From the NCBI RefSeq assembly GCF_015244565.1, contig NZ_JABCQG010000003.1, positions 62,001 to 126,000 of the forward strand: DNA of 64,000 bases, given 5' to 3'. The DNA is from Gluconobacter vitians. Lineage in GTDB: Bacteria > Pseudomonadota > Alphaproteobacteria > Acetobacterales > Acetobacteraceae. Position numbers and translations under genes: made by a program. The notes beneath the pieces were generated by a model. It worked only from the letters and a program-made list of their open reading frames with translations. It did no database searches and was not told the origin of the DNA. This document shows positions 44,948-47,515 of the stretch, piece after piece; within the stretch, counting starts at the first letter, position 1, and every line of letters starts with the position of its first letter.

Positions 44948-44991
44948 GGAAGCCACAGGCCTTTCGACCATCGCAGGGTCTTTGTGCTAGA

Positions 44992-45023
44992 AGCCTTCCG
45001 GAGCAATCCGGGAGGCTTTTTTT
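44992..45023 (+). terminator. intrinsic terminator of csbD overlapping the next gene's ribosome-binding site
   Basis: AGCCTTCCGG 44992-45001 pairs with CCGGGAGGCT 45008-45017 (one wobble), followed by seven T. The 3' arm contains GGAGG (45011-45015), the only candidate ribosome-binding site for the gene starting at 45026. Confidence 0.9.
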
Positions 45024-45025
45024 GC

Positions 45026-45664
45026 ATGGAATGGTTTTACGAGAATAACGGGCAGCAGGTTGGTCCCGTTTCCCGTGAAGAAATCCTGCGTCTGATCATG
45101 CAGCAGCGCATCAAGCCCGAAACGCTGGTCTGGACGTCGGAGTTCGGCGAGGCCTGGCGTCCTGCCAGTGCTGCCGGGCTTGTCTCTCCGCTGACGGGCC
45201 TGCTGCGCCTGTCCACGGGCATCTCGGAGCACTGGGCCTGGGTTGTGCTTGTCGGCCCATGGCTGATCCAGCGATTGACGCTGCTGATTCTGGACTGGCG
45301 TCAGGTGCCTTACAGTGAGCAGGCTGGGCCATCTTCCATTGTCGCGATCATGTCTCTGGTCCTGTTTTTCACGGCCTTCACGCTGGACCGCAATTCCATC
45401 CGTGAAAACGGGCAGACGCCGCCGGGCTTCTGGTGGTGGATGTTCCTGCCGGGATATTTCTGGAGGCGGCGGCAGATTGTCGGGCGGGGTCTGTCACTGC
45501 TCCTGGTCAGTCTGGTGCTGTTTGCGGCCAATGTGACGGAGAAGATCTACCAGTTGCCGCAGATGAAGGCCGAACTCCAGCACCAGCAGGAGCAGATGCA
45601 CCAGTCTGCGCCATCAAATCCGCCAGCCTCTTCCGGGCAGGACGACGAACAGGAAGAACTCTGA
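45026..45664 (+). CDS. GYF_2-domain membrane protein, unknown function
   Basis: A 212-residue protein. The N-terminal 50 residues (MEWFYENNGQQVGPVSREEI, with ETLVWTSEFGEAWRPA) form a GYF_2 domain, a small fold thought to bind peptides. About four membrane helices follow (for example WAWVVLVGPWLIQRLTLLIL and SIVAIMSLVLFFTAFTL), then a Gln/Ser/Glu-rich cytoplasmic or periplasmic tail. ATG 45026 is chosen over an earlier GTG-type start because the domain begins there. The start lies three bases after a T-run; its ribosome-binding site is in a terminator stem. Function not known. Confidence 0.8.
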   Translation: MEWFYENNGQQVGPVSREEILRLIMQQRIKPETLVWTSEFGEAWRPASAAGLVSPLTGLLRLSTGISEHWAWVVLVGPWLIQRLTLLILDWRQVPYSEQAGPSSIVAIMSLVLFFTAFTLDRNSIRENGQTPPGFWWWMFLPGYFWRRRQIVGRGLSLLLVSLVLFAANVTEKIYQLPQMKAELQHQQEQMHQSAPSNPPASSGQDDEQEEL

Positions 45665-45676
45665 GCCCTGAGGAAA

Positions 45677-45766
45677 GAGTCTTTCGAACCACACTTGACA
45701 TACTAAACTGAAGAACAATGCATTTTTAGGCTTCCCTTTCGAGTCGCCATGATTCAAAACCGATTC
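45677..45766. promoter_or_regulatory. cluster of four GANTC methylation sites upstream of rnhB-ccrM
   Basis: GAGTC at 45677-45681 and 45741-45745, GATTC at 45751-45755 and 45762-45766. Three fall within 26 bp in the expected leader. GANTC is the target of CcrM, encoded in the operon just downstream, so methylation feedback on the methylase's own expression is a natural reading; a similar arrangement is known for Caulobacter ccrM. Confidence 0.7.
45695..45724 (+). promoter_or_regulatory. putative promoter for rnhB-ccrM
   Basis: A perfect -35 TTGACA at 45695-45700 and an 18-base gap to TGCATT (45719-45724). Transcription would begin near 45731, just ahead of three GANTC sites and about 80 bases before rnhB. 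The -10 is only a fair match. Confidence 0.5.
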
Positions 45767-45809: not shown

Positions 45810-46433
45810 ATGCCGGATTACGCCCTGGAAGCTGCCCATGGGGGGCTGGTCGTCGGGATCGACGAAGTTGGGCGTGGTCCTCTGGCGGGGCCGGTGGTGG
45901 CTTCTGCTGTAGCCTTTACGGCACCGCCCTCAGAAGCCCTCTCTTCCCTTCTCGATGATTCCAAGAAACTGACCGCCCGGCGCCGGATGCTCGCCTATGA
46001 GGTCCTGATGGCCGATGATCAGGCGCTGATCGGCATTGGTGCCGCATCTGTCGGGGAAATCGAGCAGATCAATATTGCTCAGGCCTGTTATCTGGCCATG
46101 CGTCGCGCCCTGTCCCGTCTGGGCCGGATGCCTGATCTGGCGCTTGTGGACGGCAAGCATGCTCCGAAGCTGCCCTGTCCCATAAAAATGGTGATTGGCG
46201 GAGACGGGATCAGCCTGTCCATTGCCGCAGCCTCCATCATCGCAAAAGTGACGCGGGATCGCCTGATGGCGCGTCTGGCGGTGCGCCATGATGCTTATGG
46301 ATGGGAGCGCAATGCCGGTTACGGCACGGCTGCGCACATGCAGGGCCTGAAACTCCGGGGGGTGACACCCCACCACAGGCGCGGGTTCGCGCCGATACGA
46401 AACATGATTGAAGCAGAGGCACACGCAGCATGA
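45810..46433 (+). CDS. rnhB: ribonuclease HII
   Basis: Cytoplasmic nuclease that removes ribonucleotides misincorporated in DNA and RNA in RNA-DNA hybrids. It is 207 residues. The catalytic motif DEVGRG starts at Asp18 (D18, E19), the DSKKLT loop follows, and the later aspartates are in ALVDGKHAP and [11 protein letters not shown]. The basic C-terminal part ends with the family pattern [18 protein letters not shown] lies about ten bases before the ATG. Its stop overlaps the ccrM start (ATGA), so the two are coupled. Confidence 0.97.
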
Positions 46434-47515
46434 GCGGTGAATTTCCCGTCGACCAGATCCTGCGTGGAGAATGCATCGAAACGATGAAGACGCTGCCCGA
46501 TGGGAGCGTGGACTGCATTTTCGCCGATCCGCCGTACAATCTGCAGCTCCGCGGTGAACTGCGTCGTCCGGACGAGACCGTCGTGGACGGGGTGGATGAC
46601 GACTGGGACAAGTTCGCGAATTACGCGACATACGACAATTTTACGCGCGAATGGCTTAGCGAAGCACGCCGTATCCTGCACAAGGACGGCACGATCTGGG
46701 TTATTGGCTCATATCACAACGTCTTCCGGCTTGGTGCGATCATGCAGGATCTGGGCTTCTGGATCCTGAACGACATCGTCTGGCGCAAGTCCAACCCGAT
46801 GCCGAATTTCCGCGGACGTCGCTTCACCAATGCGCATGAGACGCTGATTTGGGCGGCGCGCGGTCCGCAGAGCAAATATCGCTTCAACTATCAAGCCATG
46901 AAGGCCCTGAACGATGATCTTCAGATGCGTTCGGACTGGTACCTGCCGCTCTGCACGGGCAATGAGCGTCTGAAAAATGAACATGGCCTGAAACTGCATC
47001 CGACGCAGAAGCCGGAAAGCCTGTTGCATCGCGTGCTGGTGGCCTCGACCAATGCCAATGACGTGGTGCTCGATCCGTTCTGCGGAAGCGGCACGACCCC
47101 GGCGATGGCGAAGCGTCTTGGGCGTCATTACATCGCGATCGAACGCCACCCGGACTACGTCAAAGCCGCCCGGGAACGCGTGGCGCGTGAAGAGCGCCTG
47201 ACATCCGAGCAGCTTGCGACGACGCCCGCCAAGCGCGAAATGCCGCGCATTCCGTTCGGAAGCTTCGTCGAGACGGGAGCTCTTCCGGCTGGGACATTGC
47301 TCTATGACCGGCAGAAGCGTCTCAAGGCGACGGTGACGCCCGATGGCACGCTCGTATCGGGCAACCAGCGCGGTTCCATCCACAAGCTGGGTGCGATGCT
47401 GACCAATGCACCGTCCTGCAATGGCTGGACGTTCTGGTATTTTGAGCGGGACGGTCAGTTCGTCCAGATTGATGTGCTGCGTCAGGAAAGTCAGGCGCTG
47501 CGTAACGTCGGCTGA
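46430..47515 (+). CDS. ccrM: CcrM-type adenine-N6 DNA methyltransferase (GANTC)
   Basis: Orphan cell-cycle-regulated methylase that methylates adenine in GANTC and sets the timing of alphaproteobacterial transcription. It is 361 residues, beta-class: motif IV DPPY at residues 33-36, motif I FCGSGTT from Phe217 near the C-terminal side of the catalytic domain. The last 85 residues are the CcrM-specific DNA-recognition domain with NGWTFWYFE near the end. No restriction gene is nearby. It is co-transcribed with rnhB, behind four GANTC sites, and ends at a strong bidirectional terminator. Confidence 0.96.

Follow-up and report, generated by a model that had tools for sequence, protein, structure and literature searches.

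A conserved GANTC cluster upstream of rnhB-ccrM in Gluconobacter as a candidate methylation-responsive core promoter

Most of what is known about the link between CcrM levels and replication comes from Caulobacter, with CtrA involved. We analyzed a 64,000-nucleotide stretch of the Gluconobacter vitians genome (the window), in which four GANTC sites, the expected target of CcrM, stand directly upstream of an operon of rnhB and ccrM. The question raised by this arrangement is whether ccrM regulates itself by methylating its own promoter, and whether such a promoter extends beyond the genus. In our best reading, the cluster would provide a methylation input on ccrM.

The operon and its GANTC sites

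The first gene of the operon, rnhB (45810..46433, + strand), encodes a ribonuclease HII that matches the model NF000595 with 217.8 bits against a cut-off of 167. The second, ccrM (46430..47515, + strand), encodes a CcrM-type adenine methyltransferase (NF050803, E value of 4.5e-189), and the rnhB stop and the ccrM ATG lie in a 4-bp overlap of the open reading frames. These profile matches and the coupled frames confirmed the gene calls of the original prediction. The match of the window CcrM to NF050803 was near full-length, with a score of 627.7 bits that falls short of the 830 bits set as the curated equivalog threshold; by this model, the protein is a relative of Caulobacter CcrM and no equivalog.

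The 145-bp intergenic region upstream of rnhB-ccrM holds the GANTC cluster. It consists of a distal site 1 (45677..45681; GAGTC, in the context AGAGTCT) and of sites 2 (45741..45745; CGAGTCG), 3 (45751..45755; TGATTCA) and 4 (45762..45766; CGATTCG), all read on the + strand. The predicted start positions of these four sites and the position of a TTGACA hexamer at 45695..45700 (+ strand) were exact. Sites 2 and 4 fit YGAKTCG, the extended GcrA/CcrM motif in the form ending in G, and sites 1 and 3 do not. Two neighboring features were also observed. A small gene (44984-45664, + strand) without an NCBIfam match, the start of whose product we take to be GYF_2 domain-like, ends 12 bp ahead of site 1. 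A fifth GANTC (45957-45961) lies inside rnhB in the codons for DDSK; it recurs at the matching place in most loci of the genus and is thus probably maintained by the protein.

The background of one GANTC per 256 bp assumed in the prediction was an overestimate. A 464-kb sample, composed of the window and 400 kb of the 3.16-Mb assembly, contained 640 sites, or one per 725 bp. The 64-kb window had 79 sites compared to 336 in dinucleotide shuffles, and this depletion bears only indirectly on whether CcrM methylates GANTC. With crude masking of the sample, the rate was one per 490 bp in noncoding and one per 767 bp in coding DNA. The ccrM cluster was the sole group of three GANTC in 26 bp and the sole group of four in 90 bp in the 464 kb, and the four looser groups whose surroundings we inspected lay mainly in or at predicted open reading frames. 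Given the noncoding rate, a group of this kind would arise by chance with a probability of ~2e-4 in one 145-bp intergenic region and of ~0.08 anywhere in the sampled noncoding DNA. Because density alone still leaves a chance of ~0.08, the strong evidence for the cluster is its conservation rather than its density. Two or more GANTC in the promoter region are one trait of a Caulobacter-type ccrM promoter, and the region before rnhB-ccrM, with four, shares this trait.

Conservation before rnhB in acetic acid bacteria

All 26 genomes of the genus contained ccrM preceded by rnhB, with 4-6 GANTC in the 200 bp upstream. Of these genomes, 22 carried the triplet of sites 2 to 4, with its pitch of 10 and 11 bp, at ccrM, and this was its one occurrence in the G. 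vitians genome; two others, G011 and G019, had one extra match to the triplet pitch each, in unrelated sequence. The remaining four genomes had 5-6 GANTC per 200 bp in a different arrangement. Site 1 was at the same place in L001-L021 and absent or moved in L022-L026. The genus alignment revealed a near-invariant block, formed by the triplet and a preceding box, flanked by variable stretches. In L001-L022, on which segment conservation was computed with L023-L026 omitted from the 26 genus sequences, 26 of 32 triplet columns were invariant, as opposed to none of the 41 leader columns that come next. The box CATTTTTAGGCTTCCC (45721..45736, + strand) had a mean top-base fraction of 0.963 with 11 of 16 columns invariant, and positions 45694-45700, which include the TTGACA, had one of 0.974.

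The cluster was conserved well beyond the genus. We labeled as acetic acid bacteria the loci with at least 74.5% CcrM identity, a line set post hoc and named after the named members above it. L084, L089 and L091 fell under this line and were counted as other Acetobacteraceae, yet clustered among acetic acid bacteria on the CcrM tree and had the 4-bp overlap. The samples were capped and partly hand-picked and comprised 40 regions from the 187 family genomes in which CcrM was matched (20 of these regions below 74.5% identity), the 80 best-ranked of 583 named loci, and, for Acetobacter, the best 30 of 48 genus matches. The named and unnamed panels overlapped, and identity of the upstream sequence was the sole criterion for removing duplicates, which reduced 92 acetic-acid-bacterial loci to 75 distinct upstream regions. 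These had 2-9 GANTC per 200 bp (mean of 4.51, where 0.27 was expected from the rest of the locus), and the upstream region was the densest 200 bp of the locus in 72 of the 75 and tied in another 2. Conservation in close relatives, on which the prediction had staked itself, was found in every one of the 26 genus genomes and across the 75 distinct upstream regions, and the claim of a nonrandom cluster ahead of a coupled rnhB-ccrM held, given this conservation and the uniqueness of the group in the 464-kb sample.

The number of sites stayed steady while their arrangement varied by genus. Several neighbors of the genus also had the 10/11 pitch. Helical phasing was discarded as a general rule, as Acetobacter often showed 16/18 and Komagataeibacter 25/8/69/20 or similar. 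Among the best 30 Acetobacter loci, 29 had 4-6 GANTC in 150 bp; the other, L228, had two, having lost the sites that adjoin rnhB. Acetobacter conturbans (L131) carried nine GANTC within 200 bp, from -161 to -17 of rnhB. YGAKTCG accounted for 156 of 338 upstream sites in the acetic-acid-bacterial panel compared to 57 of 719 sites elsewhere, and YGAKTCK, the extended GcrA/CcrM motif (PMC7987155; this and the other papers are cited from excerpts), for 175 of 338 compared to 140 of 719, where "elsewhere" includes coding DNA.

A ccrM promoter layout across the class

Confining the cluster to acetic acid bacteria, as counts before rnhB alone would suggest, proved to be the wrong scope: counts in the gap between rnhB and ccrM revealed a class-wide cluster. 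The gap counts were made on 186 loci, leaving out 21 without rnhB in place, duplicates, and loci with less than 200 bp before rnhB. The class panel consisted of 80 of the 104 matching genomes outside the family, chosen by rank and contig room, and was divided into a first panel of 40 and a held-out panel of 40, with 13 of the latter from families of the first panel and 27 from other families. Among the held-out regions, 39 of 40 were distinct, and L295, which had no DNA before ccrM, was scored as a miss. Across the 36 first-panel loci with adjoining rnhB, the density of GANTC per kb was 27.2 between rnhB and ccrM, as opposed to 2.2 over the 200 bp that precede rnhB and 3.2 inside rnhB; the corresponding densities in 35 held-out loci were 19.3, 2.0 and 3.4 per kb. 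The acetic acid bacteria had a median gap of -4 bp (range of -4 to 70), usually the 4-bp overlap, and 22.5 GANTC per kb ahead of rnhB. The cluster thus tends toward the expected position of the ccrM promoter, which is the gap in the class and the region before rnhB in acetic acid bacteria. Transmission of the signal through rnhB, as originally suggested, is correct as the anatomy of this operon, whereas most class loci examined have the GANTC directly ahead of ccrM and not ahead of rnhB.

Most class loci shared a defined layout. TTGAC was followed by a GANTC within 9 bp in 28 of the 40 first-panel loci, and by a second GANTC at a pitch of 8-12 bp in 18 of the 40, compared to a mean of 0.25 (maximum of 3) for the second GANTC in token shuffles and to 2 and 0, respectively, on the reverse strand. 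The 40 held-out loci gave 20 and 15, with 0.22 (maximum of 3) in shuffles and 1 and 0 on the reverse strand. Upstream of GANTCA, matches to TTGACA peaked at a 17-bp spacer, at 3.52 and 3.86 in the two panels compared to 0.7-2.1 at other spacings. With CA as the only requirement at the -10 position, 21 of 22 first-panel promoters having four or more matches, and 21 of 21 held-out ones, carried T as the sixth base, so that CAnnnT looks like a genuine -10 of the class ccrM promoters. The template TTGACn-N17-CAnnnT with its GANTC was derived from the first 40 loci and recovered among the 40 others: with spacers of 16 to 18 bp, it was present in 30 of 40 first-panel and 28 of 39 distinct held-out regions (58 of 79 in total), whereas ten control spacings pooled gave 2 and 3 matches. 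A GANTC lay inside the template in 54 of the 58 promoters, typically as one site 3-5 bp past TTGAC and another sharing its final C with the -10. Indeed, a GANTC started 4 bp ahead of the -10 in 40 of the 52 promoters with a 17-bp spacer, and the exact template with a GANTC overlapping the -10 was found 40 times before ccrM and zero times elsewhere in 310 kb on both strands. In 22 of these 52 promoters (among loci L233-L312), the -10 ended only 5-11 bp before the start codon, and the ccrM mRNA is thus possibly leaderless there.

On this comparison, the window cluster is probably a variant of the class-wide ccrM promoter feature. Following the 17-bp rule, TTCCCT (45732..45737, + strand) would be a weak -35-like element with three of six matches, and CAAAAC (45755..45760, + strand) a putative -10-like element without the final T, deduced from the class CAnnnT. 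The GANTC sites start at -14, -4 and +7 relative to this -10: site 2 falls within the putative spacer, site 3 provides with its final C the first base of the -10, and site 4 adjoins a putative start point at ~45767. Both elements are weak, and a promoter scan of the region returned no sigma-70-like promoter, neither for TTGACA at 45695 nor for this core promoter. Within the genus alone, other spacings scored nearly like 17 bp, so the spacing profile was not distinctive. Among 17 genus representatives of acetic acid bacteria, however, 14 had GANTCA, and the hexamers 17 bp upstream made 44 matches to TTGACA, compared to 9-33 at 17 other spacings (16, 18 and 19 bp were excluded as controls) and a maximum of 37 in 2000 composition draws. 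Asaia and Swaminathania, with TTTACA-17-CAAAAG and two GANTC, came near the class form, and Acetobacter and Komagataeibacter had different arrangements without a 17-bp fit. As far as these comparisons reach, the cluster before rnhB in acetic acid bacteria is a related, weaker form of the class layout. The class template and the 14 representatives jointly place a GANTC pair within or overlapping the core promoter, and the window sites are therefore probably core promoter rather than leader.

The remainder of the family differed. In other Acetobacteraceae, TTGACn-N18-CAnnnT preceded ccrM in 32 of the 47 distinct regions; the spacer was invariably 18 bp, and a GANTC occurred in just 2 of them; L097, L150 and L167 are examples of such promoters free of GANTC, and L167 has a GATC at about the class GANTC position. 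In 30 loci of this group, GANTC amounted to 2.5 per kb in the gap and 4.8 per kb before rnhB. Within the family, GANTC was thus dense in acetic acid bacteria and sparse in the other members, in which methylation input seems dispensable. Acetic acid bacteria are nested within Acetobacteraceae. On a quick CcrM tree of 115 rows with a midpoint root, the label of at least three sites needed 5 changes compared to 35.5 in shuffles. With the tree unrooted, 42 rows lay on one side of a branch with a support of 93, below the starred level; 41 of them had fewer than three sites, and L101 had three. From the nesting and this quick tree, we read the order as a loss of methylation input along with the spacer change, which preceded the acquisition of sites ahead of rnhB by acetic acid bacteria; the alternative would be independent losses.

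Reading of the mark and alternative explanations

We consider it reasonably probable that the cluster is a methylation-responsive core promoter of the rnhB-ccrM operon, and ccrM probably regulates itself by methylating this promoter. CcrM would methylate the cluster sites, with the top-strand adenines at about -15 and -26, and passage of the replication fork would leave them hemimethylated. RNA polymerase together with GcrA would then fire differently on the hemimethylated and the fully methylated promoter, and ccrM output would track both the replication of its own locus and the activity of CcrM. In acetic acid bacteria, the control would be placed before rnhB, with the two genes overlapping. 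Methylation would be expected to stimulate, as it activates the ftsZ and mipZ promoters of Caulobacter (PMC3708114). A broader account, which we advance only as a tentative conjecture, is that ccrM has a dedicated promoter throughout the class, with methylated bases at fixed places in the sigma-70 core, beside the -35 and overlapping the -10, through which CcrM would tune its own promoter even without GcrA; the Acetobacteraceae would have lost the sites as the 17-bp spacer widened to 18 bp, and methylation control would have been regained by acetic acid bacteria through a new GANTC promoter before the fused rnhB-ccrM.

Where GcrA is present, it is the likely reader of the mark. A PF07750 match (E value of 1.2e-30) was found in the G. 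vitians genome, and GcrA was present in every one of the 26 genus genomes as well as in all 10 family genomes searched outside the genus, one of which (G033) is an acetic acid bacterium and another (G027) has no CcrM match. GcrA is reported to bind methylated GANTC, to protect the ctrA P1 promoter from -35 to -10 and to recruit RNA polymerase (PMC3667746), and to contact region 2 of sigma (PMC7403470). Among Caulobacter promoters, those whose GANTC lies between the -35 and the -10 make up a temporal group of their own (PMC4287350). The activity of Caulobacter ctrA P1 was unaffected by a GANTC change (PMC3667746). Twelve of the 80 class genomes, however, had CcrM and no PF07750 match (G333, G318, G324, G378, G380, G393, G338, G397, G296, G293, G307 and G332), and 11 of the 12 kept the template with GANTC compared to 43 of the 68 with GcrA. 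The promoter type is thus not confined to genomes with detectable GcrA, and the 22 of 80 class loci without the template all came from GcrA-positive genomes. YGAKTCG made up 31 of 114 sites in class gaps and 56 of 273 elsewhere, with no clear enrichment. GcrA is therefore a likely, yet incomplete, explanation.

The same 12 genomes lend some credit to a reading in which promoter opening responds to methylation directly, or in which the mark is read by a factor other than GcrA, which we regard as somewhat unlikely, though worth keeping in view. A GcrA profile built from seven sequences reached only 0.03 as its best value in these genomes at E values up to 10, and the overlap of one GANTC with the -10 in 40 of 52 promoters fits a direct effect. 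However, GcrA may have diverged too far for detection or lie outside the assemblies, and its published footprint matches the site positions where it exists. We find a Caulobacter-like leader, the placement favored by the original prediction, still less likely: transcription would start from TTGACA at 45695, three sites would lie in the leader, and full methylation would silence the promoter. The position of this hexamer and its conservation in most Gluconobacter stand, and it may serve a second, upstream promoter; the Caulobacter ccrM promoter, with two GANTC, is reported to be activated by CtrA only when hemimethylated (PMC10073500, PMC2217572). The leader placement itself is doubtful, as the promoter scan found no acceptable -10 at 16-18 bp from TTGACA, with CATTTT 20 bp away, and the 20 bp that follow it were variable in L001-L022 (0.691), as opposed to the near-fixed cluster and box. 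Moreover, the class and family comparisons place GANTC in the core promoter, and a full CtrA box, TTAA-N6-TTAA or TTAA-N7-TTAA, was present in just 1 of 92 upstream regions of acetic acid bacteria, which led us to reject CtrA control.

Long dyads with GANTC in both arms occurred in several Acetobacter and Komagataeibacter species, in Brytella and in g38, with a summed dyad extension of 134 over 37 rows compared to 62.7 (maximum of 84) in shuffles. They argue for a leader RNA structure or the site of an unrelated dimeric regulator, with GANTC as a by-product, an explanation that we consider quite improbable. The window RNA folded no better than shuffles (z of -0.28 and -0.63), which led us to reject a leader hairpin there, and its dyad was no longer than chance (p of 0.40). 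In addition, the number of GANTC remained high despite an arrangement that changes between genera, and the dyads of other genera do not explain the Gluconobacter block. Inverted repeats before rnhB with matching changes in both arms were seen in L120, L128, L132, L144, L145, L081, L072 and L074, and such repeats might act either as a DNA dyad bound by a dimer or as a hairpin in the RNA. A chance cluster in an AT-rich intergenic region would draw on the higher GANTC rate of noncoding DNA and on the probability of ~0.08 given above for the sampled noncoding DNA; it was refuted by the conservation in 75 distinct upstream regions and, ahead of ccrM, in two class panels, and we give it almost no weight. 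The methylation-responsive core promoter is the reading that we retain.

GANTC sites in the promoter of Caulobacter ccrM and methylation-activated promoters were already known. The window cluster resembles the Caulobacter crescentus ccrM promoter in placing several GANTC at the promoter region of the methyltransferase gene (PMC10073500); in contrast to that CtrA-activated promoter with two sites, it has no CtrA box, has 3-4 sites with the triplet at a pitch of 10-11 bp, and would drive rnhB-ccrM. It shares with the GcrA/CcrM-dependent sigma-70 promoters of Caulobacter (mipZ, podJ, ftsN and others) the fit of two of the four sites to YGAKTCG and the presence of GcrA in the genome; a placement of GANTC in the core promoter, clear in the class, is only putative here given the weak -35 and -10. 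GANTC changes lowered activity at mipZ, podJ, flaY and pleC (PMC3667746) and at ftsN (PMC3885167). Unlike in these promoters, the target here is ccrM itself, the sites are often in tandem at a pitch of 9-11 bp, and 11 of the 12 genomes that lack a detectable GcrA retain the layout. The GATC clusters of the Escherichia coli dnaA promoter and oriC, which SeqA reads, are similar in that clustered methylation sites couple a promoter to replication (PMC10073500), whereas the methyltransferase and the putative reader differ. GANTC counts ahead of cell-cycle genes by Brilli et al. led to no conclusion on methylation control (PMC2877005, section 8). In excerpts of the openly licensed PMC literature, we found no report of the class-wide layout, the placement before rnhB or the persistence without GcrA, and earlier reports are possible.

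A fixed GANTC layout in most class loci examined, kept also without detectable GcrA, suggests that self-regulation through promoter methylation is a general rule. The layout also supplies defined bases to change, and an m6A reader when GcrA is missing becomes a testable idea. Two class loci of one genus, L243 and L278, had TTAACTGGGGGTTAA, a full CtrA-type TTAA-N7-TTAA box before ccrM with GANTC downstream, and may be of the Caulobacter type.
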